Positions 13,048 through 59,600 of a stretch of 64,000 nt of DNA are shown piece by piece. The stretch's first letter is position 1. Every line of letters begins with the position of its first letter. The DNA lies in assembly GCF_047948215.1 (NCBI RefSeq), contig NC_134456.1:13417730-13481729 (forward strand). The letters run 5' to 3'. This DNA is from Lycorma delicatula (taxonomy: Eukaryota; Arthropoda; Insecta; Hemiptera; Fulgoridae). A model generated the notes under the pieces. The model did no database searches and was not told where the DNA came from. It saw only the letters and a list, made by a program, of their open reading frames with translations. The position numbers and the translations under genes are program-made.

Positions 13048-13547
13048 AATATGATGATGCAATTGAACAAAAAACTCATTTTTTTAATTTACTTAAGAAA
13101 GTTTTTTGGACACAAGAAATAAAAAAGGTTTTAATTATTTTTTAAAGTTTAACTTTTTGGCATTTTTAATGATAAATTTTTAAATAGCTTTAAATAAACT
13201 TTGTATGAGAAAAAATAATTTTTGCTAGTTTGAAATTATTTTACAGTTACAAAAATAAATTAAAAAGTTTCTGCTTATTTGGTTAAGGTTCTTTTCAATT
13301 GTTTTTAAATATTTCCATTCAAAATAGTCCTGGTACCAGCTCACTCTTTCATGACTAATTTTCATCAGCCTGGAAGTGTGTTAGATTTTTAGTTTAGTAA
13401 ATGACAGACCATAAAAGTTCAGTAGGAAAATGATGTTCTGTGATTGTTTTGTTGTTAAACTTATAAGTTTCGTGTGATTTTTTTATTTATCTATAACAGA
13501 TTATAACTCGTGTGTGTGTGTGTGTATATATATATATATGTATACAC
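12546..13547. other. AT-rich stretch with palindrome and poly-T run
   Basis: No coding signal. It holds a 22-bp inverted repeat with arms at 12896-12917 and 12926-12947, a poly-T run (13017-13042), and a TG/TA microsatellite (13511-13539) next to the fold-back element. Confidence 0.6.
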
Positions 13548-13783
13548 TAGAGTGGTCCAAATAGGGCAAAATTTTTGTCGAAAAACGTGCACCCCCTGAT
13601 TTAAAAGTACTCTCAATAACAAAATTTTTGACGCGTTGATGAACCCTTTCCGTTCGAAAAAAGTCATCCCCCACTCCACTTGAATTTTAAAGGGGATTTA
13701 ACATGGGTTTTAGGTTATTTTCAAGTCGTTACGATATAGCGCTTGCATGTTTCATCACAAAACTTAAAAATTAACGTATATAA
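13548..13783 (+). repeat. Left long terminal inverted repeat of the fold-back element
   Basis: Pairs with 15114-15349 in inverse orientation with only a few mismatches (for example AGGGCAAAA versus AGGGGAAAA near the tip). Homology continues into the 144-bp units further inside. Confidence 0.85.
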
Positions 13784-14320
13784 GGGTTTTTGGGGTCGGA
13801 GAACACGAATTTGAAGTCAGAAACTTATTTTGACACATCACAACTGTCAAAATTGCCGTCAATCAATTGACAACTAGCGTTTTTATGAAAAAAAATCAAT
13901 GCTCAACATTACAAAAATTGTCAATAAGGGTTTTTGGGGTCGGAGAACACGAATTTTAAGTAAAAAAACTCATTTTGGCACATTGTAACTGTCAAAATCG
14001 CTGTCAATCAATTGACAACTAGCGTTTTTATGTATAAAAATCAATGGTAGACATTACAAATAACGTTAATAAGGGTTTTCGAGGTCGGAGAACACGAATT
14101 TTAAGTTAAAAACTTATTTTGACAAGTTAAAACTGTTAAAATCGCTGCCAATTAATTGACAACTAGCTTTTTTATGTAGAAAAATCAATGTTAGACATTA
14201 CAAACAACGTTAATTAGGGTTTTGGGGGTCGGAGAACACGAATTTGAAGTGAAAAAATTGTTTTGACACATTAAAACTGTTGAAGTCGTTGTCAATTAAA
14301 AAAAATCTGAAGGATAGATT
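13784..14320 (+). repeat. Tandem array of four 144-bp units (fold-back element, left)
   Basis: Units begin with GGGTTTTTGGGGTCGGAGAA and include AATTGACAACTAGCGTTTTT. Period is 144-145 bases. The fourth unit stops early near 14300. Each has drifted slightly; TTTTCGAGGTCGG marks unit three. Confidence 0.85.
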
Positions 14321-14423
14321 CAAAAAGATCAACTCTCATTTGATTTAAAAAATTTTATATTCATGTATATAATTATTCAAATAATGTTGTTAAAATTTTA
14401 TGATTTCTATTTCTATTATTATA

Positions 14424-14926
14424 TTACATTACATATGTAATGTAATTATATACATCTGGATGTTTTTTGCGATGATCATTTACAATTTGTAGTATATATT
14501 GCAATTGACTTTCATCTTTAGTGAATTTACATCTAAATTCTTTCACCAATTTAACCGTTCTTTCTGAGCAGTCATTGACGACCTTTAGATTTTTAACACA
14601 ATTCAAAGCAGCCAAAAAATCTTCGTTTTCGCTCCACTTACACGGATCAATTTCTAGAAAGCTAGTCGCAAGTTCGAATCGTTTAAAAAAATTCCAGGAC
14701 TCCGTGTTGACAAAAAAGTCGATTTCTTTGTTTAATAATTCGTTAACATTTTTAGTTTCGTAGCGTTTCGTGTGAGCAGGTTCGTTATCATAATCACAAT
14801 CATCATCTGTCGCAGATAATAAATTTTCGTAAGGTTCACCCGAAATTGCTAGTTTTTCAACCATTTTCAGTTTTAATTCAGTTGAGATGTCTTCATCAAA
14901 AAGAGCTAGCGTACCTAGCCAAAATG
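14424..14926 (-). pseudogene. Truncated ORF inside the fold-back element (C-terminal part of an unknown protein)
   Basis: The longest Met-started frame is 146 codons (14864 to 14424). The same frame is open further upstream, reading FWLGTLALFDEDISTELKLK directly into that Met. It therefore starts inside the neighbouring repeat unit, without a start codon of its own. The rest contains FVNTESWNFFKRFELATSFL, LNCVKNLKVVNDCSERTVKL and ESQLQYILQIVNDHRKKHP. It resembles the C-terminal tail of multi-copy arthropod proteins of unknown function that may belong to transposons. I infer a relic of the element's own protein left after internal deletion. No catalytic motif is visible. Confidence 0.6.
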
Positions 14927-15113
14927 AGTTTTTTTACTTCAAATTCGTGTTCTCCGACCCCAAAAACCCTAATTAACGTTGTTTGTAATGTCTAACATTG
15001 ATTTTCCTTCATAAGAACGCTAGTTGTCAATTGATTGACAGCGATTTTGACAGTTACAATGTGTCAAAATAAGTTTTTGACTTCAAATTCGTGTTCTCCG
15101 ACCCCAAAAACCC

Positions 15114-15349
15114 TTATATACGTTATTTTTGAAGTTTTGTGATGAAACATGCAAGCGCTATATCGTAACGACTTGAAAATAACCTAAAACCCATGTTAAA
15201 TCCCCTTTAAAATTCAAGTGGAGTGGGGGATGACTTTTTTCGAACGGAAAGGGTTCATCAACGCGTCAAAAATTTTGTTATTGAGAGTACTTTTAAATCA
15301 GGGGGTGCACGTTTTTCGACAAAAATTTTCCCCTATTTGGACCACTCTA
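15114..15349 (-). repeat. Right long terminal inverted repeat of the fold-back element
   Basis: Inverse complement of 13548-13783. Open frames seen here and in the left arm are mirror images of each other and are not genes. Confidence 0.85.
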
Positions 15350-15374
15350 ATATACACACACACATTTTCCGTCC

Positions 15375-16067
15375 CACAGGAAAAGTGACTCGTCAAATAA
15401 AATACAAGACGTTTATTTTTAGTTTATATGACTTTTTATTCAAAATAGGCTCCTTGTGAGTCAATACATAAGTGGACGCGTTTGACAAATTATTCGAAAC
15501 AATTCTGATGCTCAACCTTTGAAATTGCCTGCAGTACCGTGGTCGTAGCCTTCTTGATATCTGAAATCGTGGCTAAACGATGAAAACATTCGAAATACTG
15601 AAAACACCATGTTTCATGCAAGACATGAAATCTGGATCCCTAGCGGCCCATCTTTTCATATCTCTGCAGTGCTTCACTCTGCAATCTTTTTGATCGTCAG
15701 TGAGTTAGTGGGGCACACAGTGACAACAGATTTTCTTTTTGCCCAAATTTTCAGTTAGAATGCGATGCGCAGTTGTTTTAAGAATTCCAGTGCTCTCTTC
15801 AATTAACCCGGTAGATGCACAACAATCATTTCGAAGAATTTCAGCCACTTTTTGAGCATTTTCTTCTACTCGAACTGTCGATGATGCTCCTGGACGTAGA
15901 TCATCTTTAATGCTCTCTTTACCATCACGAAATTTTTCAAACCACATAAAAACGTTTTTACGACTCATTGCGTCACTACCGTAAATACTTTGTATCATTT
16001 TAGAGTGTCTGTGACTTAAAAAATAGTTAATGTTTGCACATTGCTCCATTGCTCCTTTCACGACCAA
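15375..16067 (-). pseudogene. Internally deleted mariner transposase
   Basis: The minus strand starts at 16067 with MEQCANINYFLSHRHSKMIQ, the HTH region SRKNVFMWFEKFRDGKESIK, and TAHRILTENLGKKKI. In shifted frame come TDDQKDCRVKHCRDMKRWAA and DPDFMS. It then jumps directly to the family C-terminus, AWCFQYFECFHRLATISDIK, LQAISKVEHQNCFE and CIDSQGAYFE (15600-15440). The whole DDE catalytic region between is missing, so the copy is non-autonomous. Clear matching terminal repeats were not found. Confidence 0.78.
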
Positions 16068-16185
16068 AGTTCAAAACATATTGTTAAAGTTTTAGTTATT
16101 ACGAGCAGTCTGTGATGCCAGCACTGTTAAATTTAAAACGGAAGGTAATCGGAAAATACCACGCTAGTCAATTCATGCATCCGTT

Positions 16186-20608: not shown

Positions 20609-23600
20609 TAATAATAATAACCCAGAGGGGGATCCTGTCCCCCTACTGGGCGCGTCCTCAAGGTGGTGGATAGAGGAAGGCCCTGTAGATATACAGGGTA
20701 GGTGGTGTTCTTCGAAGGCCCACCCGCGGACCTTAACAGGTACTTTAAATCTAACGCGTCTGTTCCAGATTGGTCGGCGTATATTTTCCATGTTAGGTAC
20801 GGCCGTTTCTAGAGGTGTCGGAGCCTTGCCCGCGTGAGCTTATCCTGTTACCCATTTGTTTTGAAAATTAATGGAGTACAACGATGTGAATAAATACCGG
20901 GGCGGTAGGGTGTTGCGGGCTGACACACTTCGGAGCCGTCGTGATGTTCAGTCTGGGGCGAGGAGTGCTAGAGCGAGTGGCGGCGCCTCACCTAATGGTA
21001 CTACAAGGCCTGGAACGTCTTCTGTGGCTGAAGTTCAGTTACCCAGTGCTGTAGAATCCCGGGGTAGGAAGCGGTTTAAATGGACAGATGAACATAATGC
21101 CTTCCTTTACCGTACCTACCTAACTATAACAAAAATGGAATCGGACATGAAACCGTATAGTGTTCCGCTGCACCAAGCGATGGTTGAGAAGTTCCCTGAG
21201 CTACGATGTAAGTCTGTCCAAAACATCCTGGATCAGCGCAGATCCCTTTTTAAGTCTAATAGGGCTCCTGCGGATGTGGTGGCGTTAATCCGAGCTGATG
21301 TTTCTAGGGAGTTAGGGTTTTGTCCAGCCCATCTTCAGATGAAAATGCTGTAGAAGAAGCGATAAGAGCCGACAATCCCCTCTCCGATCAATTTGCAGAG
21401 ACCGATGCTGTATGGTGGTACGGATCCGTCGGCCAGACAGCATATACCAAGGCTGAGGGTTAATCGCGGCACGAGAAACACAGTGGGCCTTATTATTGAG
21501 ATTCTTGAAGAAAAAGTAAGATTAGTACCCTCCATAACTGAGCTCCATGAGTTAGTGTACATCGGTGCGATCACAGCAGTCAAAGCGAATGGCCAGTGAA
21601 TCGTCGCTCCTGCAATGCGTAAGAGTCCCCATGTATAAGCAGTTGCAGGTTTCACCTCAGCAACAACCTCAGGTGAACGCGTCCCCTACTAGTGAGGTCT
21701 TGGGTTATTGGGGCCCGCTTTGGTCGTGTTCCTCACAGCATAACAGTGGGGCAAGGTGGATCCGTGACGAACGAAAACGAGTTGATAGAGTCCAGACGAT
21801 GGTAGATCATTTAATCACTCTAGAAGATGTACAGGAGGCGATTAGGAAAACCCATAATTGGAAGGCGCCTGGGATTGATGGAGTGCATAACTTTTGGTAC
21901 AAGCGCTTTTCTTCTGTTCACAAGCGTCTTGCAGAATTTTACTCTGCCATCTTGCGAGATGCCAAGTCTAATGCCGACCTTTTTCACCCTAGGGGATGAC
22001 CTATCTGATCCCGAAATCTTCTCCTGCGACGGCAGACCCGTCCAAGTACAGACCTATTACCTTTCTCCCTACAATAGATAAGCTTTTTACTTCTGTTCTC
22101 ACTGCCAAAATCAATAAGCATCTTGAGAGACATCAGATCTTAGCTGAGGAGCAGAAAGGGTGTCGTCAGGGTAGTAGGGGCTGCAAAGAGCAGCTAGTGA
22201 TTGATAGCGTTATATCTGTAACGGAAAAGAAGAGTCAGGGCAGCCTATATACTGATTATACAGACTACAGGAAGGCAAAGGCCTTCCTGTAGTCTCGGTT
22301 CCGCACTCCTGGTTGATGGAGGTCTTACGTCTCTACAAAGTCGATCCCGTTGTCGTTGAGTGCCTAAGTGTCGTTATGGGTAAGTGGTGCACAAATCTTT
22401 CGTTAACTATTCCAGTTAAGAACTCCGTTAAGGTCGGAGTAATACAGATCAACCGAGGCATTTTTCAGGGCGATTCCTTGAGCGCTCTATGGCTTTGCTT
22501 AGCGTTGAACCCTCTGTCTTCCATCTTACAGAAGTCCAAGAAGGGTTTTGCTCTTGGGCAGTACAGTTTTAGCCACCTCATGTATATGGATGATATTAAG
22601 CTTATTTCTGATACTGAAAAAAGTGTCCGGCAACTTGTCAAATTAGTCGAGAGGTTCAGTGTCGACATATGCATGAGTTTTGGTCTTGACAAGTGTAGGG
22701 TCAATGCCATGAAGAGAGGAAAATGGTCGCAGATTGAGGCGTGTAAAGTGCCGCAGATGGATGCTCCTGCACTCATGAATGCAAAGCAGCGTATTGAGTC
22801 ATATAAGTACCTTGGTTTCCTGCAGGATATTGGAATTAGCCATAGTCGAGCGAAAGAGGCCCTTACATCTGACTTCAAGAGTAGAGTAAGAGCCGTCTTG
22901 AGTTCCCAGTTGAGTGGTTCTAATAAGGTAAAGGCCATTAACATATTTGCCGTTCCGTTGATTTCCTATAGCTTTGGCGTGATAAATTGGACGCGGACAG
23001 ACCTTGAAGGGCTTAATAGAATGATGCGTGTATCGTTCACGCGACACCGCTCCCATCACCCGCGCAGCTCCGTCGAGCGGTTTCACCTATCCAGAAATAG
23101 AGGAGGAAGAGGCGTTGTGGATTTGCGGGAAGTTCATGTAAAACAGCTGCTGAATCTCCGGAAATACTTCCTAGAGAAGAGCCAATCCAGCTTGCTCCAC
23201 GGGGTTATAGTAAAAAGTGACAGTAGTCTAACCCCACTGCGCCTCAGTGATGAGAAATTCCAGCCCTTGAGGATACCTTCTCCGAGACCAGTGTGATGGA
23301 TAGGTGGCGTTCGAGGGAGTTGCATGGGAGGTACTATGCGGCGCTTATGGATGAAGCAGTTGATCGAGATGCGTCTGTGGTCTGACTGGAGTATGCTGAG
23401 TTGTTTGCTGAGACGGAGGACCTTGTATTTGCTATACAAGATACTCAGCACACTCAGCTACAGAAAGCATGTCGTTAAGGATCCTGCTGTAACCATTGAT
23501 CTGTGCCGTCTTTGTGGATACGCAACGTGGCGAAGATACTTCATCAGAGACTCGCTTTGGACCTAGGTCTCCTTGCCGTTTCAGTCCCGTATTTTAAGTA

Positions 23601-38600: not shown

Positions 38601-41600
38601 GCAACTTTGGGCAGATTATCATGTGAAGTAAGTTATTACATTTATGTAACATAGTTTAATTAATGTTATATTTATTACATGAAATATATTACTGAGTTGG
38701 GTGCTATCACCTTATAATCTAATAGGGACCTTCTCTGTTTTCATCCAATGCATCTACTGCTAGATCTTGCTAAAATTTCATACTATTCATGGTATCTATC
38801 AATAAATTTTTATTGATAGAAACTTCTTAAAAATTTCTTGCATGGTTTTTTTTTATAAGAAAAATAATTCCATTGTAGCAAATAACAATCTGTTAATACA
38901 TAATTATCTAAGTGAACTAACTGATTTTTACATTATAACTAATTTTATAGGGTGGCTGAATAAAATTAATTAAACATTAGAAAAATCTCAGATACTGGAT
39001 CGTTAAGTAAGATAGATATAAATTGATTCTTAAATTCTCAAAAGAATCAATTTATGAGATCAATATATCAATAAATCTGATATATTTCTCATTAAAGATA
39101 TATTTATGTACATAAAAAAATATGTTAATAGATTTAAAATGATACTTCATTGAAAGGCAATATTTTTCAGATTAGTATTTAAAGATTTTTAATATACATA
39201 TGTTTATCAATAAAAGTAATTATACCTAATATATTAGTATCTTTATTCACAAAAAGAATAAAATATCAGATGCTGTAAAAGATAATTCAATGCTTTCTGC
39301 CATCACCCAAGGTAGTTCATCAATATTCCTTTCCTACTGTAAAAAAACACACCCCTTCTCTAATGAGTTGCTCTGCAGAAATTTGAAATTAGAATATATT
39401 TATTAGTTTTACATTACTTCATCTTAACCAGCAGTTAATCCCAAACACAGAACTCTTCATCTATACATAAAGTTGTTCAAGCATTTCAATTTTATTAGCA
39501 TATTGATTGTTTTAATAAAAAATAGAAGTAATCAATTTATGTGAAGAAGAATAAAAACAGCTGTGATATTTTTTAATTGCAGTATATTAAACAAATTTCA
39601 CCATCCTCTTTAAAATGGAACGTTTTTTCTAAGGTACCTCGGACAAGAATTGTGCTCTGAATCAAATGGTCAAATGATTTATATATTTCTTCTATAAATC
39701 CATTAAATTAGGTAGATTTCATAAGAAAGCTACCTAATGTAATAGGTACCATGATTTGACTTCTGGAAAATTTTGACATATCTTTGCATTTCACAACCCC
39801 CAGACCCCAAAACCACTGTCAGTTCAAAAGTTTATACAGAGTCATTCACGGGAACCGGATGTTTTTAAAATAATCATAAAAAATTGATTATTTACTTTAA
39901 AAAAGTTTTATTGATATTGAAACACTTGTTAAATCAAAGCATTTGCTACTTACTCATGAACGAAATATTATGTCCGGCAAGTGATGTCCATTTTGGGCAA
40001 TACATTGTTGTAGCCATTCACGGAAACTGGCCTCAATTCTTGGCAGCATGTCTACATCAATCTGGGTGACGTGATGACGAATTGCGATCTTTAGGTCCTC
40101 TAATGTACGCGGTTTATTGCCATACACACGCGATTTCAGAACCCCCGCAGAAAAAAATCACAATTACTCAAGTCGGGGGACCGAGGGGGCCAAGGAATGT
40201 TGCCGAATCTGCAAACGATCCGTCCCGGAAACAAGTTACGGAGAACAGCCATCGTTGCCCTCGCTGTGTGCGCTGTAGCTCCATCCTGCTGGAATAACAC
40301 ATTTTGAAAATCGATTCCCCGGTTTCGTAACTCAGGGATGAAAAACGTATTCAACATCGCAATGTAAGAATCAGCTGTTACAGTTACGGCAGCGTCATTT
40401 TCTTCAAACAAATATGGTCCAATAACACCGACCTTTCCTATTGCACACCAGACAGTCACCTTTGGGCTATGAAGTGGTCTCTCGTGAAGCCGATGCGGGT
40501 TTCTTTCTGCCCGATACCGGCAATTCTGTTTGTTGACGAAGCCATTCAGATGAAAATGGGCTTCGTCACTCATTAACAATAACAAATTTTCATTTTCTTC
40601 GAAAACGGTAAGCGTTTGTCGACAAAATTGTAATCGCTGCGTGAAATCTTGCTCGTTTAACTGCTGCACGACGGCTATCTTGTAAGGATGGAAATGCAGG
40701 TCTGTATCCAAAATTCGTCTTACCGTACTTGTGCTCATTTGAAGCGCTGCTGAATGCCTCTGAATAGAGCGGCGTGGGCTTCTGACAATGGCTTCCCTTA
40801 CTCGTTCGATGTTCTCCGGAGTGCTAGCAGTCGGGGACCCGGTGGTTTTTTCTTCAATATTGAACCGCATGTTCGAAGGTTGTTTACCCATCGTAATATT
40901 GTGTTACGAGAAGGGACGCTTGCATTACGATGGATATTAAACTGACGGGGGAAATCTCGCTGAACAGCAGTTACGGATTCGTCATTTCGCACAAAACTGT
41001 CATACACGTACGGTTACACATACACGTACACGTTGGTCTAGCGTCCACGGCTCCATCTCAACGACTAAAATGTAAATGCTAAGAACAAAGGAAACGTCAG
41101 ACACCAGCCACGTGCCCCTCCCACCACGAACGCCCGAGTACAACCCACTTCAAAAACATCCGGTTCCCGTGAATGACTCTGTATATACATTTATATATAT
41201 TTATTTCACTTTCTTGTGGACATGATAAACTGCCGTGATTTTGTGCCAATTACTTTCAAATTGATACATAAAATATAACAACCCAAAATCTCGGTCGGGT
41301 TCGTTAATGGGCAAAATCAGACAATGGAGTGGAATTGGGGGGGGAATTCAAAAAAATATTGCTATAACTTTCTTATTAAGTAAAATATCGAATTCATTTA
41401 AAGTTTCTACTATTCTTTGGATAAGGGCTTAAAACTTATCTAAGTAAGGTTTTTTGATATCACCAACCATTGGCCCAGTAGGTGGGAAAAAATGGGGTTT
41501 GGAAACAAAAAAAATCATACTTCCCTTAATAGGCACAATATCAAATCAGTTTAAAGTGGTCGTTGTTATTCCTCTATACATTACCTAAAATTTTTGTCAG

Positions 41601-44600
41601 AAACAATTTTTGCTGTGACTAACCCTTATGGCAAGGGATGACCAAATTATTGCTACAATTGGAAGATAGGGCTTGTTGTATGCTAAACATGTGAAACTTT
41701 TTTCACATCCAACCATTGTTGTATTGAGTAAATTTGAAGTTTTTCTTAACTTTAAAGTGGAAATCTTTTTTATCCCCTACTTAGCACTGGTGAAATCTAC
41801 CTCTTCCTTCCAGCATGCCGAAAGGGATTTTTTTTATTTATTAATAAAATCTATTTGGTCTTTTTGAAAGATGTGTTGAAATAAGTTAACAAATAGTGAG
41901 TAATCTATTATTTTAGATAGCTTGTTTTTTTCACATTCTTCTCATTTTAAAATTTACCCATAATGTATAATAATTATTCATCACAATTTAGAGTCCATGT
42001 AAAGTAACAACCCTGCTTAAGAGCAAAGGTAACATAGTAGGTTATTTATATTTTGTAAAATTATGGATTATCTTAACATCAGTAAAAGTAGACAATGGGA
42101 TATTTTTAAGTTTTGATTTGTCGCAATGAGAAAAGATAATTTCTTAATTTTAATAAGATATGAATTTTTTAATAGTAGTTGCTTTTATTATTTTTGTTAT
42201 ACTCTCACACTAATAATATGAAAAATTCCTTTTCATTTTGTTATAATTTGTAACCCATTTTTTTTTTATTTTAAATTTCCATGAATATATTTAACAGCAT
42301 CAATGAACAATCGATATGATGTAATGGAATAATTTTCAGCTTGTACTCATATATATATAAGAAACAACTCATAAACTGAAAGACAAGTTTTTGTACAATA
42401 GTAACTATCATCAATGACATTATTCTTTAGCCAGATACCAAAAATGAGTTCAAAGAAATTCTAGATGACATTTATGCCATTCAGAAGAATTTTTGTTAAA
42501 TAAGAAATTCAGTTTAAAAATAAATAAGAAAAATTAATGAATTTTAAAAAACGTTTGTCACGTAAATGTTTATCTGCCAATCTCCTTGGCCGAGTGCTAG
42601 TATCTCAGTCTTTCATCCAGAAGTCTCAGGTTCAAATCCCAGACAGGCATGATATTTTTCATAAACTAGAAATCTCCATTTTCACATTCCCATGCTTCTT
42701 TGATGAAATAGAATAAAATAAAACTAAGGTAATGAAATTTGATGAAAACAATAACAAGCAATTAAAGTTTAAGAAAGACAAACATTTTACATTAGAACTT
42801 ACAGAATTTTGATATTTAGGAAGTAAAATTAGAAATAATGAATACAATAAGCAAAGTTAAAAACCTGATTGACTCAAGTTAGAAGAGAGAGCTTTTATGA
42901 AATAATATGCTTTTAAGAATAATACTAATATCCAGTATAGATAAAAGTAGAAATATTCTTAAAATTATTTGTATGGAATGGAGCATTTTGTGGTACCAAA
43001 ACAATGATAATAAAATTAATCAAGAAAAAAAGAATAGTCCTTTGAAATCTAGTATTACATGAGGCTACTAAAAACTAGCCAGGTTAAAGTACGAAAAGAA
43101 GAACTGTTAAAATGAAAAGGAGGAGAGAAAAGTTTGGAGCAGAATCTTGTCAAGAAATGAACTAGGTCTGCGAGTGAATTATATTAAAATATCCAGCATT
43201 AGTTAATTTTTTAACAGAGAAATGTGTTAAAAGGAGAATTCTATAAAGGAATATGAATTATTCCTAACTACATATTAACTATAAATATATTAACTATAGC
43301 AATTTATAAATCATGTAGCTGAGGATGTAAAATACAGTAAATAAAAAGTTGACATTAAAAGATTAGCTCGGTACAGAAAAGAGTGGAGAATAGCATTGCC
43401 TCAGTCAAATGACAGATGATAATTTGTAACATAAATATTTTGTAATGTTAAACTGCACAAATTAAAACACTCATATATATTGAAAATATTACACTTTTAA
43501 ACTAAAAAAAAAACCTATACTGCTTGAAGTTACTATCATCTTAATCCAGAATTATTAATTGGAAGTTTTATGTTGTAACAGCAGTTGTTACCATACACTT
43601 AACGTAGATTTTGATGTGTTTTATGTCTACTTTTGTCATTTTGGTCATACATATTGTATTGCCATTGTTATTTTCCCTTGTATTTTATTTATTAGCGCAA
43701 TTTTAGTTTAATAGTTTTATAATTATTTTCTTGATTAATTATTTATTTCTTTACTTATATTTTTTACAGAATGTTTGATACGTTTAAAGCTGAAGGTATA
43801 GATTTCTGGGGTATGACAACTGGTAATGAACCCATTACTCTTTTCCAGTTTCATTTATTCTTTCCTAGTCTTATTATGTTTCCAGAAGAACAGCGAGACT
43901 GGGTTATTAATAAATTGGGTCCAACACTAAGAAAACATAATTATACTACAAAAATAATTCTGTTAGATGATCAGCGACTGTATGCATTATGGTGGATGAA
44001 GACGGTAACTTGCACTTCATACATTATATGTTACTGTTACAGTAAACTTGTAAAATTATATTGCATCATGGAATAAGTTATTTCTTTGAAATAACTAATA
44101 ATGTCTATTACAGACATGATTGATTATTTCAAAAATAAGTTTCATATGCTTTCTCTATTGTCTTATATTTATCAATTATACAAAATATTATTATGAACTC
44201 ATAGTATCTATATTTCTGTTGGTTGTCATGTGAGAGATTACAATTTTATTTACCAGAGCAAAGGAAGCAAGCGACACAATCTTTGTAAAAATTGCCATTT
44301 TCATAACACAGTTTATAAAAATTATTTTAAAAAGGGTTTATACTGCTCAGCAGATTGTATACACAAACAAATAAATGAATAGAGGGGGTCCAATACTACC
44401 AGGATGGTTAGTCCCAATCTGTCAAGCTAATTTGCATTCGTATAAAATACAGTATAAGATCTAAACAAATAAATGAATAGTCCATTCAGGTCGTACATAA
44501 TTATACATTATGTAAATTGTATCCAGTATAGCAGGTATCTCATTCCATAGATAACAGAACTGCACAAGCATTTGACTAGAAGAATCAAGGGAAACCACAG

Positions 44601-47600
44601 AAACCCCTTGATCAGAGGAGCATAACAAACTACAAAATTAATAAAGAAAAAAGAAAAAAATTATCATAAACAGAGTAAATATGCAAAAATAATAATTGTA
44701 AGATTGAAATAATAACATTTCAACAATTCAGAATTAAATAAATGAAATTGGTACAGAATAAAATAACTTTGAAGATATTAAATGATTAATATCTGGTTAG
44801 ATAAAATGAACTTAAATATTATTTTAGTAGGTGTTCATTAAACAAATACGCAGAAAATTCATATTTATCTAATTTGAACTGTTTATAACATCATCAACCA
44901 ATCATTATTGTTTCTGTAAATGTATATTTTAATTTTATTTTAAATTAACTAATCTGAAGATCTTTATAATATTAGATGATTGTTAGATCTGTTGCGATGT
45001 GGAGGACCATAAAACCTTTGTGGAAGGTTTTAGAGCAAGTATGAACTAGATGCATAGGTGATGAATTGAAACAACGCCTTGTTATTTATTGAATTGTTAT
45101 TTAATTTCTTGTCATCTTGACCTTTTGATAACGTATAATTGAACATCTAACATATAATTGACCTTAAGAACAAATAAGTATACAAATAAAATTAACGCTT
45201 ACATATACAAATAAGATAAGTGTTCATCCGAATATTCGTATGTGCGTCCATCTGGACTGAATGTACAACATGACCACTCTGGGTCAGATTCTGGCGCCAA
45301 ATGAATACAGGTCGCTACATCATAATGACCACTCTTTGCGGTATTATGATGTAGGACATCGTATGACAATAGCTTGTCGGAGAGCTCTAGCCCACACCAG
45401 GTAACAGCACCCGACAGCAAAAGTAGAATGTAACAGTAATTTATTAAAATAGAAACTAAATTCTAATAGGCCTTTCTTGTAAATAAACAGCTGTGACATA
45501 TTACTTGAAAAGTTCTGTTGTTTTTGGGTTGATGCTAGTTATTAAATACTATTATTTTATTTTAGGAATAAATAATTTTTTATTTACTAAAAATTGGTGT
45601 ATGTGAATCGTATTTATTAACATAAACAAAAAATATCTTAGTCTATTTTTGTATGCTGAAAAATTGTTCTAACTTTTTAACTAACCCCAAGATGTAATAC
45701 AATGGTCCTTTGGAAAGTCCAAAGTTTATTTGACACAAATAAACCACAAGATTTTTCATAGATTTTTTTTTCAAACCTGTCAACTTGCAATTAGAAACAT
45801 TTAGACCAAATGACTGTTCAACTTTTAAATGCTCTCAGTAAAATGTAGTAAAGTTGTGTAAAAAAGTGGTTGTCTCTGCTTTGATGTGAAATTTTAAGGG
45901 AACCTTCACCCAGCAACCCATCTCTTCAGATTTGGAAGAAGTAAACACCAGAAGCCAAATACAGAGTATGTGGAAGCACTTCAAGGCATAGGTCATGGGG
46001 TTTTGTAACAAAAACCTTAGATATGTGTGCAGACACATTATGGTTAAAAGAAAACTTTTTCAAAGAAACATTTTTTAAAGAAAACTTTTTTTGACTAGTT
46101 GTGGACATTTGTCTTGAATAGAACTCAGTATAGACTACACTGATAGAAAAAAAAAAATTATGTTTCTCTAAGCATGATACTATTTCTTGAATTGCTTTTT
46201 TGCGTACATTACAGATCTGTAAATATAATTTTCTATCAGCCTTAGTTATAAATAAATTATGCTTAAAAAAGATTAAGCGAAAATATAGTTAAAATCTGTA
46301 AAACTTATAATTTTGCATGGTCATACCTGTGTTAGAATGATTTCACTGATGATTTTCTTTTATAAATAGCCTCAGGCAGATCCTGAATTAATGTCCAATA
46401 GTAAATGCCTAGCATGTTAATATTCCATTTCCCTTTATAGCGGCTTTCCATCACCAAAATGTCTTGATGGAAACGCTCACCGTATCCATCACTTACATCT
46501 CCGAGGTTGTCCGAGAAAAAATCCAGATGTGAGTAGAGGAAATGTATTTTCAAAGACATATTGCATCCCATAGCTCTGTATGAAGTAAGAAGTTGATTAA
46601 CAATATCGTGGTAATAGTCGGATTTTTGTTGGCTGAGAAAATTTTTGCAAACGTCTTTAAATGAAGCCCAAGCTACACTTCATAGCTCATCAATATTTGT
46701 GCAATAATCCAAATTATTTTTTTAAAGTAAATTTCAGCCTTGTTTTGATCCTCACAGTTTAGCTTGACTTTTTTATAAATTTAAATCCCTAACCAAGTCA
46801 TTTAATTCACCTTGTGGTATAAGATGTGGCTTACTGCAAGATAATTTTAAATCAACATCATTGTTGTATTTTTCAGTACTGCCTAATTCTTCTTCTCTAT
46901 TTTAGAAATATACATTCACAGGTGGCTCAGGAGCTAGAATAATTTCAAGGTACAAGCCTGATTGCAGATTGCAATGAAGGATATTTTACAGTATGTTTAG
47001 ATTTTTTAGAAATTCCAGACACACTTATTAAACAAAAGTAACAATCAGTTACATGATCCTTTGGTTTATGCCAAACCATAGGTACACCAAATGGCAAAGC
47101 CTTCCATACACCTTTCAGCCATCCTCTTAAATATACAGAGCAATTAGTGCATACTATATGAGGAGCCCACATCTTATCTTGATCACCACTTTTACACTGA
47201 AAGTACAAATGATATGTCTTTTTAAATAAAGGTGTAATGTTTTTTATATTTGATTTTATGGTAAGCTCACCACATACGAAATGCGACAATAAAGTAATGA
47301 GACTGATTTTTCTTTGCAAGATGTGGCAACCCTGCAGCTTGTGTAGGCACACCATCTTTGACCTTAGTCTATAAGCTACTTCTAGTCCAAGCGGCACATT
47401 GATGCAACTGCTCAGTCGTGAGTTGTGCTGTAATAAGTGAACACGTATTTGTGTCTCTCGTCACAGAAATGAAACCGCAAAATATTGCGCATGGGTATGC
47501 CATTTCTTTTTGCGTTAAATCGGGTGAAAACACGACGACAACTTATGGTAAGCTTCAGAAGGCTTTTGGAGAGGAGGTTATGTCAAGAGCTCAAATTTTT

Positions 47601-50600
47601 CGGTGGCATAAAATTTTTAGTGAAAGCAGAAGAATGTTGAAGATGAAGACCGCAGTGGTCGACCATCAACCTCACGGACAGATGTCAACTTGACCAGGGT
47701 ACGTGAAATCGTACAATCTGATCAAAGATTATCCGTGAAAATGATTGCAGAAGAACTCAACATCAATTGAGAAACGGTTCGTCTAATATTAACTGAAGAT
47801 CTTGGTATGAGAAAGATTTGTACAAAAATCTCACACAACAGCGTGAAACACGGAAAAATGTGGCAGCCGATCTGTTAGAGCAAACGGATATCAATCCAGA
47901 TTTGTTGAGCCGTGTTATCACTGGTGATGATGGATGGTTTTTTCAATATGATCCAGAGACAAAACGCCAAAGTTCGCTATGGTGCTCAAAGAGATCACCC
48001 AAACCAAAAAAGCTTGCATGTCAAAGTCAAAAGTGAAATGCATGCTTGTGTGCTTCTTCGATTCCAAGGGAATTGTTCATAAAGAGTGGGTGCCTCCTGG
48101 ACAAACAGTTAACCAATATTTCTACAAAGAAATTTTAGAAAGACTTCGTAAACGAGTTCTTCGTTTCCGTGCCAACATTGCTGATAATTGGATTCTGCAT
48201 CACGATAATGCGCCATCCCATACTGCTCTGTCAGTACAGCAATTTTTAACCTAAAAACAAATTTCAGTACTACCCCAGCCACCTTATTCACCAGATATCG
48301 CTCCGTGCGACTTTTTTCTATTTCCAAGAGTCAAAATGGCGGTCAAGGGACACCATTTTCAAACAACACAAGATGTCCAAAAAGCTGTGACGAGGGACAC
48401 AAACACGTGTTCACTTATTACAGCACAACTCACGACTGAACAGTTGCATCAATGTGCCGCTTGGACTAGAAGTAGCTTATATACCAAGGTCAAAGATGGT
48501 GTGCCTACGGAAACTGCAGGGTTGCCACATCTTGTAAAGAAAAATCAGTCTCATTACTTTATTGTCGCACCTCGTATATAAAAAAAGCATCCACACCATT
48601 TACACAATTTTAAGGCATTATGACACTGCACTGTTAACAAACATAAGACAGCAATAAGACTGAAAAAAATTAATTCATTCCTAAATCCAGTATTTAATAC
48701 AAACAACACAGCTGTGTTTTCAGCTACATGTTTTGACCTGCACCGACATGATTAATCTTGTCCTTGAAGGCTTACTCTTCAATATTAGATATGATGTCAT
48801 AATATGTAACTATAATATGGTTTAATTCTTTGTCTAGTATTGTTTATTTATAGCTTACAAATTGAGTTAACAAAGTTAAACAATAAAAAATGAGCTAACA
48901 AAATACAATAGAGGAGCTTAAAATGCTAACTATACATTGAAAAATGAAAAAAATCCTTTAATTAAAATTTAAAAATTTTTCAAAAATGGTGAGTGATAGA
49001 AAGATTCTGAATTCATATTCATTATCAGCATCAAAAAACAGATTAAAATCATGTATCGCATGTTAGGAAACAAAAATTATGTTTTTCAGTGCTATTAGTC
49101 TAATAGTGTTATTGGTGATGGCTCTGCCTTTTCCCAGAGTCTACGAGCACCTCACCACAAGAATTCCAAAAAACAATAGCCACGACGTTTCCTACTCATG
49201 GAACTCTTTTCACTTTTCTTGGCGCTCTTTCATCTGCTCCCATTCATTGTTTGGTCTCTGGGATGTAATGGAATTCATGTTTCATCTACTGTTATAAAAC
49301 ATTGAAGAAACTCAACGGAATTTTGTTTAAGTTAATATAAACATCCTGAAGAAGTGGTTCATTCGAATGAATTTTTGTCGACTATTAACTGACACACTAT
49401 ACATCGATTGGAAAAATTTTTTTTATATCCAAATAATTGTATGAAATGTAATGGACACAGAAATTTTGTTGGCCATCTGTTTTTCGGCATCCTGAGAGTT
49501 CATAATCTTAAATAGTTGTATAACCATGTTTTTCAGCAGCCCACTTTTTTACCTTTGTAAACCAAGCGGAAGAATCCTTTACAGTGGAATCTAACTCTTT
49601 TTGTTTATTCATTGTACAAATTAATTTATAACAGCTCAAACTTCAATTTTATCCATTTTTCATACGATGTTAAAATTTTTTTGCTTTACTGGATCTCCAT
49701 CTCAAGCAACTGTACCCACATGTCCAAACTTTCCAGACACCAACTGAAGAATCATATTTCACAAATATCATTGTCATTTGGTCATACTTGTGCCATCTCT
49801 ATGTCAGGCAGATAACTTTCTGATAACCCTGGCATTATCTTTCAAATAGGAGTATTTAATAAGTAAATAATATTACATACCAAATTAAATTATATTCTTT
49901 TTTACTTTATTGCATTCAGAACTCATTTCAAAAATGAGAAATGTATATAAAATTGTACTCATACATAAAAAAATTTACTATAAATATGATTGTATGTAAA
50001 AATGCTCTTAAATTTTTTTTCATAAAATTGATGTCTTTTTTTTGTTTTCCTGTACTTTATGATTGCTAGTATAGAAACTCTGAAAGTCAGAAATGTACAT
50101 CAAATCAGTGTTACCTCGGTTCAACAAGAAATTAATGATTACATTGATGAGATTCATACCAGCCTTCAGGCAGAAAATTTTGTAAAATATTATTAGTTTT
50201 GAAATTTAATGTTTCTGTAATCATCATTGTAAAAAAAGAGATATATCAAAATGACTTAAAAAAAGATATTTTTTCAGGTAATGAGGGATCCACTTGCTAA
50301 GGATTATGTTCTTGGAATAGGGCTGCACTGGTATTTTGATAATTTGTGCCCGGTGAATGTACTAGATATTATTAATGAAAAATTTCCAGAACAAGAAATT
50401 TTATATACAGAGTCCAGTGTCAATCCAGCAGTTAATTCAAAGTTAATGCGTGTAACTGATGTATCAGATGGCTCTAATGTAATAGGTAAGAACTCATCTT
50501 CTTAGAAATCTGGCACAGCCATTATTCTAGAATAACTATTTTACATTGTTTATCTTGTATTCCAGTTTTTCAAGAGTAAAGTGCGCCTGTGCCATGGTTA

Positions 50601-53600
50601 CTAGGAAAAGTGAAGAGATAGTTTACTTTTGTAGCCCAAACATACTATTGCCCATTGATATGCTAAGTCCACCAAAATGCAAACTGTAGACAGCAACCGA
50701 AGTGCTGCCTTCGTTCTGTTCAATACAGGAACAAGCTATAGTCAATATTACTTTTATAGAAAACAATTCTAGTTCTTCTTGTGTCTCAAATTCTTAGCAC
50801 ATATCACAGTTATAATAATGACTGAGCTAGATAGTCTACAAGAACAAATTAATATATATCCCTCCTGTGTATAAATGTGAGGCAATATATACAAAGCAAT
50901 GTATTTTATAAGCATTGCCTCAATAAGGAATTAACATTAATTTAATTAATAAAAATAAAAATTAATATAAGTAATTTAATTGATTATGGAAATACTAAAT
51001 ACAAATTGATATTTAAAAAATTAAAAGAAAAAGACCATAATCACAAACAAAATTGATAAGTATGGCTTAAATATTTATTATCCAGCTTATAAAAAATGTT
51101 TATTTTCATAAATAAGATAGAAAACTATTTCTGGGGTATTGTCTAGTTATGATAATGGGTATATAGAAATGCAGTTAATTAAAGGAAAGATAATATTAGT
51201 ATGTTATTGTGAAGCCTGTACTACCACTTCTAGCTAGTTAATCTCATCATCCAAAATCATGATTTCTTTCATAATAATTTATTTGATGGAAAAACTGAAG
51301 TAAATTTATAAACATTAAAGTGGGTTTTTTGTAGTAACGTCTTTTTTTAATTTTTAACATCTTGTTTGTTAATGTACTGTATTATCATTAAATTATACCC
51401 ATAATATCAATTTCAACTTTATTTAGACAGGGTGCTTTGGGTAACTCAAAATTTGATAATGATTAAAATACATATAATGAAATTGCTGATGTAAAATTCT
51501 AAGTTCATTAGACCAAGATGTGTTGTTAATAAAAATTGTTGAAACTCTAGCAATAAACCCTAGGTAATACAAAAAGGTTTCCGCAGAACACCCATAAAAC
51601 AAGTTATTTGTGTGTATTATATATATATATATATATATATATCTTTGACACAATTTCTTTTGCCAACATATAAAGAGAAAGAGATTGAGTGTTTACTAGG
51701 GAAATATGATCTAATTTTATAAAAAATATTGTGCAAGTCAAATAACTCTTCCCAGAGAAAAGCTTAAGATTCCCTAATAATAATAAGTAGTGCTCATCTT
51801 ATTAAAAACATCTCAAGAATTGATAATTTTTATATTGATAAGAATGGATTAGCAATTGATAAACAGTTTTACAATTACCAGTTTAAATATCTGACGCAAA
51901 TAAAAATTGTTTTTTCTTCAGAAATTAGCAATTCAATAGAGAAGTATAAGGTTCCCAAAGGAATAACCTCACTCATCCTTAGAATGGTGTGTTCCTTGTA
52001 AGAATCCAACTTAAATGTTAACCATAAAGCCAGATCCTCATTGGAGGGTTCCTCTCATATAACCCAACAGATTATTTCTGAACAATTCATTTGTTTTTTA
52101 AATATTACGTGTAAATGATTTACAGATAAATTAATGTACTAATAGTGTACATTAAATTAATGAATTAGTGTTATTAAATTAATATATCAATTAATAATAG
52201 TGATTATCCAAACATTGATGTAAATGTTTGACATGCTCATAAAAATTATTTACTCTTTCATCTAATATCTTTAATTTGTATTGAATTAATTCATGGTTAC
52301 TAATTAATTAATAATATTTTAACTGTAATATTTTGTGTTAATAATATTAACAAAAGATATGTTTATTTTACAATGAAGTAGAGTACATAAAAACAATTTT
52401 TTTCATAATTCTACAAGATAAATAATATTTACTAACATTATAAGACAAAGAAGAGTACACTGTTTAAACAAAAAAATTATAACAAAAAAAAAAACAAATA
52501 CTACTAAAAGAGAAAACAGTTTATCATAAACTAGTTAAAAGTCTATCACACTTATGGCATGACTTAAAAGCTACCTGCTGTGTTAGTAAATCAGAATATT
52601 CTTTTATAAAATTATAGAATAAAATAAACAAAAGAAAGAAACCATTCATTAAATGGCCAAATAAAGAAAGAACTAATACTATATGTTACCAATATCAGTA
52701 CCAGCTGAAAAGTTCCCTGAAGGCAACAATACATTTACATATGAATCTTGTAGATTATAAATATACTGACAGTTAGTTACTGTAATCTAATGTGAATGAA
52801 AGAATGTCTAATAATTAAATTCCTGAATAAATTATTTTTTGTAGCCAGTACTATCATGTTCATAGCCTACCAACTTATCCCAACTTCAACCATCTAAATA
52901 TTCTATCACCTCATCCTGATCTAATGTAACTTTATCAAACTATGAATATCGTACTAACCACAATACCAAACATCACTCTAAAAAGCATGTTACATCATCT
53001 TCCTGTCTGAGATTAAATAATTAACATAGCCTGCTGGCAGCTTCTCTACTCTGAATGTTATTCAGCTCAAAGTTGCAACATACTTCATGTTTTAAATTCT
53101 GTACACATAGGATTTTATGAATAACAGTCTCCAATATAAGATTTAATTCCTACATTTTTTAATTGACTTCAGACTGTGTGAGACTTTGACCTATCTGCTC
53201 TATCCAACCACTCATCCTTTAATTTCTCAATGATTTTACCTGATATTTTGTTCAACTGATGCTTATATTGAGTTTTAATCTACGCTCATAATGAGTTCTA
53301 CTTTACTCTGAATGATCAACTGGGATATCATACTTTTTCGCTAAGTTTTCTCCATGTTTTAAATCAATCCTTCTTTGTTTCAACAATTTTTTCTCTTAAG
53401 AATTACTGGTATCAATCAGGGGACATAGAAGTTCATGGCTACCATATCTACAATGAACCTTAAACAACTGTTCATACAAGGCATAGATCCAACCTCTAAA
53501 TAAACTATTTAATCTGGAGTACATCTGGGAAGACCAGACATTCTGTTTGAAAAGTATCTACAAAAATCCTCCTATCCCTTAATATTTGATAACCCCATAT

Positions 53601-56600
53601 TTTTTCCCTCAATAAGACTACTGTGTTGTGTATTAATATATTATACTGCAGTATGTATTATAAATAAAAAAAACTGCTGTGTAGAAATTATTCCTCTGTA
53701 TATTAATAAGTGCAATAAAGAACACTGATTTATTTTAATTGTAAGACTTAGCATGCAGTAAGAAGTGATTTTATTGACATAAAGATATTGTACCTACTCC
53801 AAAAAAATTAGTTTAAAATAAATGCAGCAACATATTTTGTTTATAAATAAATAATAAAAATTATGGTGCTTATGCATTGAATATGCTATAAACCAACAAA
53901 ATCTTATTTGAAATAAAAAAATGTTTATTTTTCAGGTTTTGACCCTCAACCACCTCGCTTAGGATTATGGCACCTAGCTGGTTTATATATTTCAAATATT
54001 ATTGAGGTCTGTAACACTTATTTTACGTCATTAAAGTAATAATAAATAAAATTAGATTTAATAGATTAAATTACTTTCAGGATTCTAGATTAGTTTTTTA
54101 ATTATCAATATCTCAAATTAAACTTCTACCCACAGCAGTGTTGCAGTATTCTTTTCTTTATGGATATAATTAAAGTTTTTTTAAATTAATTAATATTTAT
54201 CTGATATGACATCTCAAGAGTCCTATCAGCTCTTAAGAGTCATAGTATTACTGCTTAATCTATGTAAATAAGAAATAATTTTTTTTAAGGTGATTACTTT
54301 TGTAAAATTCAGTCGAATTTAGATTACCCACACTGTTTAGAAAATTATTATTATTATTACTGTAAGAAACACAAAATAATTAATTTCAAGAATTTTTCAT
54401 GTAGCCCTTGATTTCTTTCTAATATTACCCATAAAAACTGAGAGTTAATTTAGGAGATTTAAAAAAATCAGATTTGTTTTTGCAGCTATTTTAATGTGAA
54501 AAACTACATTTTTGTTAAGTCAATATGATCTCTATTTTATAAATTCCCCCCTCCCCATAACATATGTTACTTGTTTGTTGTTTTATACGCTAACTAACGT
54601 TCCTACATCGCAGTTTTGCCCGTCATATCAATATAGCTTCACATGCAATATTTTTTTTAACGGCAAACTTATATATTTATGAATAACAATTATTTAATCA
54701 AGAATATTGTTTTTAAATTTTATTAAAATCTCCGCCACGGCATATAGTGAAAATTTTTCCCCTTTTTTTATGGTGCTAGAATGAGTAAGCTGCTGCGTGA
54801 ACTTACTAAAATAAACATTATTTTTAAAGCAGTCTTTTAAGCATTCTTTTTAAACATTGTTTGGTGTTTCAGCGTTTACGAACGAAAGGGTCGTTTCCAA
54901 CGTGTTCGTTTTCTGTTGAACAAGTAAAACGTGTTAATAATGTACATCGTTTGATCAACATATTCAGCGTAGCCCAGGCACTAGTACGAGGCGAATTTCA
55001 TGTCGCACTGGTTAATCAAAAAACAAAGTTTGACGCACCTAGCGAAAGAAATTCTTTATCCTTTCCGCCTGCAGAAGGTTCAAAATTTTCTGCCATCAGA
55101 TTACCCACAGCGGTTAAACTTCTGACATTGGCTTCTAGACAACGCTGATAAGGTAAATTCAATTTTACTTACTGCTAAAGCCACTTTTACGAGAAACGAA
55201 GTCTTCAGTTCTAAAAATACTCATTTATGGAGCGAAGGCAATCCACATGGTACTGTGAAAACTAGTTTTTGACATACACTTCACATTAATGCTTGGTGTG
55301 GGATTATTTATGACAAGATTCTGGGATCATTTATTTTCAATGAAAACCTTACGAGAGATGCATACGTTCTTTTCTTGAAAAATAATTTTTTGGCTCTTTT
55401 GGAGGATGTATCTTTTCAAACTACCTTGAAAATGATTTTTCAGCTCGATGGTCCAACGCTACATTTTTCTTTAGTAGCTAGAAATCGCTTGAATGCTAAT
55501 TTCTTAAACTGATCAATTTGCTACCACGATCAGATCACCTGACTTAAAGCCACTAGATTACTTCATTTGGGAACATATGAAAACGATAGTTAGTATATCA
55601 ACAAAAAGTTATTTCTAAAAAGAGTTACTATTTAAAATATGAAATGCTATTGAATTTATACAGACGATCCTGAGATGAAACGAAAAGCGACCGGAAACAT
55701 TTTACGGCGAGCTGTGATGTGTACATTGTGAAAGAGGGAATTCGAAAAATTATTATAAATGAGTTTGTTATTCTGTTACCACTTATCATTTCATGTATTT
55801 TATTGATTTTTTTTTTAATTTTTGCTATATTAAAAATAATGTTCATTAGGTACAGAAAAAATAATAATACTATTTTCTCTGTATTTTTTCGTCTGTTTTG
55901 CTTCAATAAAAAATCGATTTTTAAAAGTTTTTATTTGATTTTTATTGTATTTACATTAATTTTTACAAAATTAAATTCTCTACAAGTTTTGTTACAAAAT
56001 CTTCCGCATTTATTAGTAATTTAATAAAGCTTTTGTGCTACAAACTATAAAATACTTTTTTCGACACCGAATTTTGTGTTTTATCTTGGATATCTTAACA
56101 AATACTAGAGTTACAGTTCTGGGATCTGTTTTATCTTATTTCCCAGTTCAAATTTCATAAGAAATCACTAACGTTACACCTTAATTTGGGCCCCAAAAAT
56201 TACAGTAGGGTTTCATTTTATTAGAAGAGCTGAAATCGAGCGAAATCTTTCGCTAGCAGTAACTCGAAAACAAAGCGTTTCCAGACCTAAATTTATATGA
56301 ATATTTTTTGTCATTATTTTCATCACTAGAACATGTCCTGAAAATTTCTCCGTTTCTTTGCGGGATACTTTGTATATACTGTGTATATATTTTTTAATGA
56401 TTTTTTCATTCTTATCAACAATTACTTTTGTTCTCTTCATTAATAACACTAACTTCCAAAGAGAGTAATATTATTTAAGATAAACCTACATTACTGTAAT
56501 ACAGTTGTGTAGTAAATACAATACAGATTTTCTTCAGATGCAAACAACCACTAGAAAAAAGCTATAGTTAAGTTCCACCAACATTCTGATTACTTTAAAG

Positions 56601-59600
56601 TTTTTTCTAATTTTAAATATTGTGTTATTTTTACAGAATATGAGTCACTGGGTAACAACGTACTTAGATTGGAATTTAAGTTTGAATTTAGATGGTGGCC
56701 CAAACGTATCAAATCTAACATGCGATGCAGCAATAATCATAAATAAAACTGAAGATGAATTTTATAAACAGCCAACATTTTATGCGATAGGCCATTTTTC
56801 AAAATTTTTGCAACCGGGATCCAAAGTCATAGATGTAAATTCGGTTAAAAATGTTCCATTTCAACAAGATATTGCACCGTCAACCCCACCAACAACTGTT
56901 AGTACCAGTACTATCTTCCCAGTTTTTCCAACACGACCACCTATTGTTGATGTAAAACATATTGGCGTACTTAATCCTGATGGTAGCCGTACTATAATTT
57001 TTTATAATCCGTAAGTTTTTTTATATATATGATTACTTTAAATTATGTTTATATTTAATTTTTATTAAATGGATTTCCTCCTATTTTTATCTGACAACTA
57101 GAGGAAGGTAAAATTTGTTTTTTATGCCCTAATAACTCCAGAATGGCTTCATTGATTTTAATGAATGGAAATCAATTGACTTTTATTAATTACCTGAGTG
57201 ATTGATTGATTTGAAGAAAAGATTTGATTTGATTTGATTTGATTGATAGAATGATTTGAAGAAAATAAATAAAGTACAAAGAAGCTACTAGACACTGTTG
57301 ATGGTGATAGACACTACTTTATTCAAGCCTAAAAACTACAATTTCTTTGAAACTCACTGAATGATGAAGTATGATATAAAATTGTTTAAAAAAATATATA
57401 TTCTTTCATATATTTAATTACAGTATAGAAACATAATAAAGTAAAAAGAAAAGAAAAATTATTAGAAATAATTAAAAGAGATTTAAGATTACTTAAATAA
57501 ACATGAAAGTTGATAGGAGTTTTTTTAAATAAATCTAGTTTAATCACAAAATCTCTTTTCAAGGTATGTGCAAAAATTAGTATTCAAAAGATCATAAGAA
57601 ACAAAGACAAATTGTTGTACTACAAAATTCATTTTTCATCCCAAATACAAAAAGTAAGGCAGCAGTATTTTGATCATGAATAAATAAATATAACCTACAT
57701 ATTGATCATGAATAAATAAGTGTAGTCTAAGTATTAATTTTAGTATAATTAAATGTTTTTTTTTTACCTACAGTATCAGACTCTTCCTCTGTGTCTTATA
57801 TTGGGACAAAAGAAATAAGTTAATGCACAAACAAGATTCCAATTACAGAAAAAAGCATTATTTAAGCTCTTCAGCACTTTCCATTCAAGAAAATTCATCT
57901 TAAGAAATCATATTTCTTTATTATGCATCTTTTATTATGAAATTTACGTAACTATTTTTTGGTTTGATCCATGATATTATTTAGTAAAAATCAACTTCAA
58001 TAAGAAGCTGTTTTTTAACATCCTACATTTTTTAAGTAGATTAGCACTTTATTCTTGTTAATTTTATCTACCTCATTCACATATAGTTAATGTTACTTAA
58101 TGAGTACCTTTAGATTCTTATTATAGTGATAGTATAAAAGTTCCTCAATGTAGAGCAAAGCAATCGCTGCTTGATCTGGAAAAAACACATCATTCATGGG
58201 GTATAATTTTTTTATAATCTATATTTTCCCATTAAATATCTACTTTTAATTTAATGTGCTTTTTTATCTTCTCAGATCACATGCTTGTCTGATTAGTAAA
58301 ATGTAATCAATGCATGGGGGGCGATACATTGATTTTATTATACAATATATTTAAGAAGTCCCCTGCACTTCTAGACATATATACATTGTGGAGGCTTATT
58401 AAGAATTCATGTTTTGTAATTTCTTTTCTTGAAGTTGAGGTATTAACCATTTTTCCAGCATTTGTATGTACTCTTCAAAAAAGTATGATCCAAACAACTA
58501 TCGTAATGTCACCCTGGCCTATATCATGACATGTGGTGAATCCTTTCCAAATAATAATTTTACCCCAATACATGGTATAACTTAGTAACATCTTGCAAAA
58601 AAAAAAAATATGTGAACAAAAGTGAAATCGCAATTGTTTTAGACATATTAAATAAACCAGTTCTTGTATATCACATAGTTGAATAAATCTGAATAAGATT
58701 TGTATGCTGTATAATTTTTATAACTCTAAAAAAACAAAAGTCATGAAGAAGAGGCTCAATAATAGTAATCTTGACATTCATAAAAACTCTCTACAAGGAG
58801 AATAATAGTAGTAGGAAGTACTGAGCAGGTTGAGAACAAACAGAAAGAGATTATAAATACTAAAAATGCATCTTTGTGAAACAAATTTAAACACAGTTAT
58901 AATGAAATGAATAAAAATATTCTTTAGTATTTCTGTATTAGTGATGTAATTAAAATGATATTTATTTTAATTAAACGAAGACTGATTTAGTAAGAAGGCT
59001 CAAATTTCTTTGAAATTTGTTTTTGAAAGTTCTTATATTAATGATTTAAATGTAAAATTTTAATACTATGGAATTTAATTTCTTTTTAAATTAAAGCCAT
59101 TAAAGATCTGAGATATCTAGGTGGATATCAGGACTCAATCTTTATAATGTGTTTTCTAGCTCCTAGAAGCATAAGACAATGAAGTAACAGATTGAATATT
59201 TCAATATTCTTAATAAAAGGGAACTAGAATCAAGGACTAGTTCAAGCGAAATAGAATAAATATTTTAATGCTATGAAGTTAGTGTTAAAGGTAGATTACA
59301 TTTTTAAGAAGAATGATGTAATTTTCAACATTATTTATCTTATCTTTAGTTATTTATAGTTATTTTTGACTAGTATTCAGAAAGACAAGGAGACTCAAAA
59401 CTCTCTGACGCCACTTTCTTTCATAATTTCTTCAAAATAAGAATTTCAAAACCAATTTGAAAAAACAAATTTTTTCAATATAGCAGCAATATGTTGGTTT
59501 TTTATTTTAGATCATTACACAAATAAGATTTGTACTAAACCTTAGTTCTTTTACTTTTCTTTGAAATAAAACAGAATTTGAAAAAGCAGTTTGAATGCTG

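Follow-up and report, generated by a model that had tools for sequence, protein, structure and literature searches.

Structure of the element at 13548-15349

We analyzed a fold-back element located at positions 13548-15349 of a 64,000-nucleotide stretch of Lycorma delicatula DNA (contig NC_134456.1, positions 13,417,730 to 13,481,729 of the forward strand), which is called the window below and whose numbering is used throughout. The element has the long, fold-back-capable inverted ends that define this structural class, arrays of subterminal repeated units and a central coding relic. The outer arms, at 13548-13765 (plus strand, tip TAGAGTGG) and 15132-15349 (minus strand), are 218 bp long and differ by a single mismatch (13567 versus 15330; 99.5% identity). 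Over 235 bp, the length for which the initial annotation had claimed near-identity, there are three differences (98.7%), confirming that claim, and over 432 bp there are 21 (95.1%). The tip TAGAGTGGTCCAAATAGG, with up to three mismatches allowed, occurs only at both ends of the element.

The left array (13762-14299, plus strand), delineated by repeat detection, Tandem Repeats Finder and the core pattern, consists of complete 144-bp units starting at 13762, 13907 and 14051 and a fourth one (14195) ending near 14299. The right array (14918-15135, minus strand) has one complete unit; its inner unit is truncated at 14918, the junction with the coding relic. The 21-base unit core GGGGTCGGAGAACACGAATTT is found four times on the plus strand (13792, 13936, 14081 and 14225, the third with one mismatch) and twice on the minus strand (14941 and 15085); even when three mismatches are allowed, the window has no further occurrence (shuffled expectation 0.00). 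These positions, together with the spacing of 144-145 bp, agree with the annotated set of four units on the left and two inverted ones on the right. All six units have in common a near-invariant block around TTTTTGGGGTCGGAGAACACGAATTT, the remainder being more variable, and TTGACA/TGTCAA motifs are repeated inside the unit; nine of the 28 TTGACA motifs on the plus strand of the window fall in the element. The right array is a mosaic that matches left unit L1, then L2, then the L3/L4 boundary and then L2, as would be expected from unequal exchange among units. Downstream of the coding relic lies an A+T-rich spacer (14300-14423) that matches neither arms nor units. Scans of the window with Rfam (gathering threshold) and for tRNAs gave no match.

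Dispersed copies, target duplications and empty sites

The search of the 2.2-Gb assembly (14 contigs) with a 248-bp arm query yielded 303 candidate places, and all 40 that were scored match at 98-100%, including the two arms in the window. The coding relic is present in 18 of 20 ten-kb stretches fetched around arm matches, and in 17 of these 18 the junction between repeat and gene is identical within a few bases, which shows that a single deleted founder was amplified. Taking every distinct place with two facing arms in the fetched loci (one-armed places, such as L040 and L043, were not counted), we obtained 25 copies, the window copy included, of 1245-1942 bp. They carry one to five units on the left and one or two on the right (a looser BLAST count disagrees for a few copies), the variation in internal repeats that is typical of fold-back elements, and 44 of 68 unit intervals are exactly 144 bp long. 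Two copies, L023 (C9:87394) and L035 (C12:24033496), have identical left flanks and altered tips and nearly identical right flanks; here the element probably moved within a larger duplicated or mobile segment.

In the window, the element is flanked by GTATACAC (13540-13547) and ATATACAC (15350-15357). When the flanks were compared at lengths from 2 to 12, 8 bp gave the highest share of matches, and one of 328 pairs of flank 8-mers reaches seven matches. Among the 25 copies, 17 have an 8-bp flanking match of at least 7/8, the duplication length of hAT elements, and 13 a perfect one; the same level was reached by 390 of 3575 shifted pairs and by 106 of 600 cross-copy pairs. The perfect and less simple duplications are ATCTATAT, ATGTACAA, ATGTTTAT, ATATATAC, ATGTGTAA and ATCCCCCC. 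The 17 duplications prefer T at position 2, T at position 4 and A at position 7 (16 of 17 each), as well as A at position 5 (12 of 17).

One copy, L029, is inserted in a short host hairpin repeat, and its flanks, once joined, are matched by 40 scored members of this repeat (918 candidates). In all four paralogues that were fetched the 8-bp target is present once, with no gap in the target or in up to three bases around it. The alignment of dispersed copies, which the initial annotation had proposed as a check, thus bore out both the fold-back transposon and its possible 8-bp duplication, found in 17 copies and at the empty site of L029, the pair in the window matching at 7/8.

Divergence was estimated from the arms of 23 copies; L015 and L038, used for the duplications, were excluded because their right tips are damaged. 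The arms are on average 1.4% from the consensus. The mean difference between left and right arms is 2.48% within copies; between copies, two left arms differ by 2.37% on average, two right arms by 2.60% and a left and a right arm by 2.59%. In 55 of 2000 shuffles, arms paired at random were no further apart than the true pairs, a weak within-copy excess. With 0.5%, the two arms of the window copy are more alike than those of any other of the 23. The youth of the family explains the identity of the arms without conversion. Of the two explanations offered initially, recent activity is therefore favoured, and arm-to-arm gene conversion is not needed, with a slight excess at most left to it.

The coding relic and its transposase family

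The single central open reading frame (ORF) noted in the initial annotation does exist (14864-14424, minus strand, ATG-initiated, 146 amino acids), but as part of a longer gene's remnant (14424-14917, minus strand). Read from the junction at 14917, this remnant aligns with residues ~419-570 of the 572-residue protein P0001, with 61% identity over the scored region. Judged by its sequence, it is the C-terminal part (~164 residues) of a member of a transposase family and not a complete gene. P0001 and two further proteins, P0002 and P0003, were found with the long frame, the ORF region being scored (three of 154 candidates); the search with the 146-residue ORF alone gave nine candidates, none significant, probably because the candidates were limited by the query length. 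PDB sequence searches with the ORF and with a three-sequence profile gave no match. The relic retains the invariant glutamate E537 (motif NDxxER) and lacks the region bearing D123 and D188; enzymatic activity is therefore not expected of it. Its frame is open in nine of the 25 copies, that of the window included, and the ratio of non-synonymous to synonymous differences (pN/pS) is 0.62 over seven ungapped copies with 17 synonymous and 43 non-synonymous changes; this sample is small and biased, and some constraint is compatible with it. With such values the relic is unlikely to be a maintained gene.

Searching with P0001-P0003 and scoring the 7987 candidates with most words in common, we found at least 1431 related proteins. 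An organism is named for 19 of the best 120, which were listed, and all 19 names are those of insects. In the alignment of 80 of 121 family proteins the invariant columns include D123, D188, C217, H220, R327, W328, N533, D534 and E537 (P0001 numbering), which we take to correspond to the catalytic residues of the hAT enzyme Hermes. The predicted fold of the relatives is nearest to Hermes, an RNase H-fold with invariant D, D, C..H, RW and E. The initial statement that the ORF shows no hAT motif thus holds for the Pfam scan of the ORF, which gave no hAT match, but not for the fold predicted for its family.

Several domains were not recognized in the 80 relatives at an E-value of 0.01: the hATC dimerisation domain (PF05699), which is also not among the 25 listed of 61 families at an E-value of 10; the BED zinc finger, a C..C..H-type pattern being seen in one of 24 long relatives; and, as far as these relatives go, the MULE transposase. 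A P-type transposase with a THAP domain, as in the P superfamily and Galileo, was not found either. A PDB sequence search with the 80-sequence profile returned three weak, unrelated-looking rows (best E-value 0.052), and the viral fold library gave no match at E ≤ 0.001. The family profile yielded 36 stretches in genome contigs, none of them confirmed, and viral contigs searched with the tip, the unit core, the ORF and the profile yielded nothing confirmed. The relic belongs to a large, apparently unnamed insect transposase family with a predicted hAT-type (Hermes-like) fold and without a Pfam match. One member, P0007 of Brassicogethes aeneus, has a cysteine-rich N-terminal region unlike the seven other long or near-long members compared, possibly through a domain swap or a gene-model fusion.

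In the L. delicatula genome itself, P0001 gave 268 candidates, 76 of which were scored. Seventy-three of these start at residue 381 or later, i.e. represent the deleted form (53-66% identity), and the other three are distant (37-41%) and contain stops. Residues 1-418 of P0001, for which all 83 candidates were scored, gave 56 matches with 25-49% identity. The best of them has 42% identity and seven stops, and the three without a stop are each shorter than 100 residues; this search takes no account of introns.

Class assignment, neighbouring features and significance

We conclude that the element is very probably a non-autonomous fold-back DNA transposon, derived by deletion from an element with a hAT-fold transposase and spread in trans with 8-bp target duplications. 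The ancestral element would have lost approximately its first 418 codons by a deletion that brought codon ~419 next to the inner right unit. The resulting short form would have spread by cut-and-paste, producing 8-bp duplications, with a transposase supplied in trans that would bind the tips and the repeated units, pair the ends, excise the element and reinsert it. By analogy with the tandem repeats of Galileo and the subterminal repeats of Hermes, the 144-bp units at the ends are most likely arrays of putative transposase-binding sites, and unequal exchange would add or remove units.

This assignment makes the hAT-like mobilisation hinted at initially the best guess, going by the 8-bp duplications and the predicted Hermes-like fold. 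The hAT elements Hermes, Mar and BuT2 also have 8-bp duplications (PMC10368747, PMC3517528, PMC3942097), Hermes recruits DNA-binding domains via subterminal repeats (PMC10368747), and transposase-less deletion derivatives are known for hAT elements; the tip TAGAG resembles the CAG(G/A)G of Mar.

Several observations weigh against it. The inverted ends of hAT elements are short, 5-27 bp (PMC3517528) or 10-25 bp (PMC3942097), whereas the repeat-bearing arms here reach at least 218 bp. In addition to the lack of a hATC match and of a recognized BED finger, no hAT Pfam domain of any kind was found in the 80 relatives (E-value 0.01), and the Hermes-like fold is predicted for these relatives, not for the fragment in the window. 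The duplication in the window has one mismatch; eight of the 25 copies have no duplication at the 7/8 level, L024 among them showing a 9-bp match (CTATGTTAT) in its place. The duplications are compatible with the Hermes nTnnnnAn and Buster nnnTAnnn targets, yet seven of the 13 perfect ones (7/17 overall) are plain ATATATAT, which is weak evidence alone. At the empty sites of L029 the targets differ from the duplication of the copy by one or two bases, and one paralogue (L057) has two extra bases just beyond the target. For another of the copies, L033, the sequence obtained by joining the flanks also has 40 scored matching paralogues (1891 candidates), but in all four that were fetched 8-10 bp are missing at the junction; the absence of the element is demonstrated there and the exact target is not. 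The copies were chosen by likeness to the window arm, which biases their similarity upward. Finally, among the places scored for P0001 and, in a search blind to introns, for its residues 1-418, the N-terminal matches were all broken or distant, and thus the assembly showed no intact source belonging to the same lineage.

Two interpretations of this last point were considered. The orphan state may be apparent only: an intact partner may be absent from the assembly, interrupted by introns or too divergent in its N-terminal half to be recognized, or a more distant relative may provide transposase in trans. This variant has close to an even chance: the 56 distant, mostly broken relatives, the young arms and the disregard of introns in the search speak for it, while the identity of the N-terminal matches (25-49%), lower than that of the relic half at 73 scored places (53-66%), speaks against it. 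More tentatively, the relic's family, widespread in insects, may combine the hAT catalytic fold with an N-terminal domain of its own, as a separate superfamily or a deep hAT branch, with an independently evolved fold-back design and a non-autonomous derivative that spread recently in a genome now without an intact source. We consider this combination possible, though less likely than not.

The fold-back design itself is known, and the initial statement that the architecture fits no standard superfamily was too strong, since Galileo and Tetris also contain tandem repeats within long inverted ends. A Mutator/Foldback element mobilised by a Mutator-like element (MULE) transposase is an improbable alternative. 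With exceptions, the majority of foldbacks are apparently Mutator elements, and Tetris of Drosophila virilis, a non-autonomous fold-back whose internal tandem repeats measure ~220 bp and for which its authors found no copy with a transposase, was placed there from duplications of 8-10 bp and earlier suggestions on foldbacks (PMC4079207); long inverted ends are also typical of MULEs (PMC2528002). In Tetris the authors report no conserved ORF (PMC4079207), whereas a coding relic is present here. Against the MULE reading, this relic belongs to another transposase family, for which a Hermes-like fold is predicted; the Pfam families listed for 80 relatives include no MULE, and the duplications are mostly 8 bp. 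The presence of the relic in 18 of 20 stretches shows that it was not captured by chance in one copy, though the founder may have captured it.

Still less probable is a Galileo-type element of the P superfamily. Its architecture is the closest: Galileo of Drosophila likewise carries tandem repeats in its long inverted ends, their number varying independently on the two sides, and has many defective copies (PMC3573991, PMC3688188), and its repeats contain additional transposase-binding sites (PMC3688188). But Galileo has a P-type transposase with a THAP domain, where the relatives of the relic have a Hermes-like predicted fold, its duplications are 7 bp and not 8 bp long, and its unit is ~210 bp versus ~144 bp.

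An immobile local inverted duplication, which the initial annotation had tied to single-copy arms without an empty site, is rejected as having a negligible probability, since the arms are multi-copy and dispersed, target duplications flank the copies and an empty site exists; nothing beyond the window speaks for it.

Other features of the window are mainly remnants of mobile elements. Approximately 350 bp past the right end of the element, an ORF with a Mos1-type HTH_48 domain (15705-16070, minus strand) marks a separate mariner-like remnant. A second unit with inverted arms (193 bp, 94%) lies at 47274-48577 and adjoins two ORFs on the minus strand, 46332-46679 (without a Pfam match) and 46945-47460; its content, judged by eye, is presumably a broken mariner transposase. 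At 39826-41192, 44-bp inverted repeats (93%) flank a transposase-like ORF (40136-40903, minus strand) with a weak Tc3-type HTH match below the Pfam cut-off. The G+C-richer segment 20865-24084 is a retrotransposon remnant with an RVT_1 reverse transcriptase ORF (22256-23296). On the plus strand, two exon-like pieces at 43735-44076 and 56568-57014 (span 43735-57014) come from a gene of glycosyl hydrolase family 30, which may be the host gene of the window.

A literature search found neither the relic's family nor a fold-back with a hAT-fold transposase reported, which is not proof of absence, and Repbase was not covered. The known fold-back ends are tied to Mutator and P transposases; a hAT-fold transposase would, if true, be a third case and suggest repeated evolution of repeat-bearing ends. 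Copies with one to five units on one side in the same genome would permit testing of repeat number against transposase recruitment. The element further draws attention to a large family of insect transposases lacking a Pfam match; in L. delicatula it represents a young, non-autonomous family whose source has seemingly gone from the assembly.
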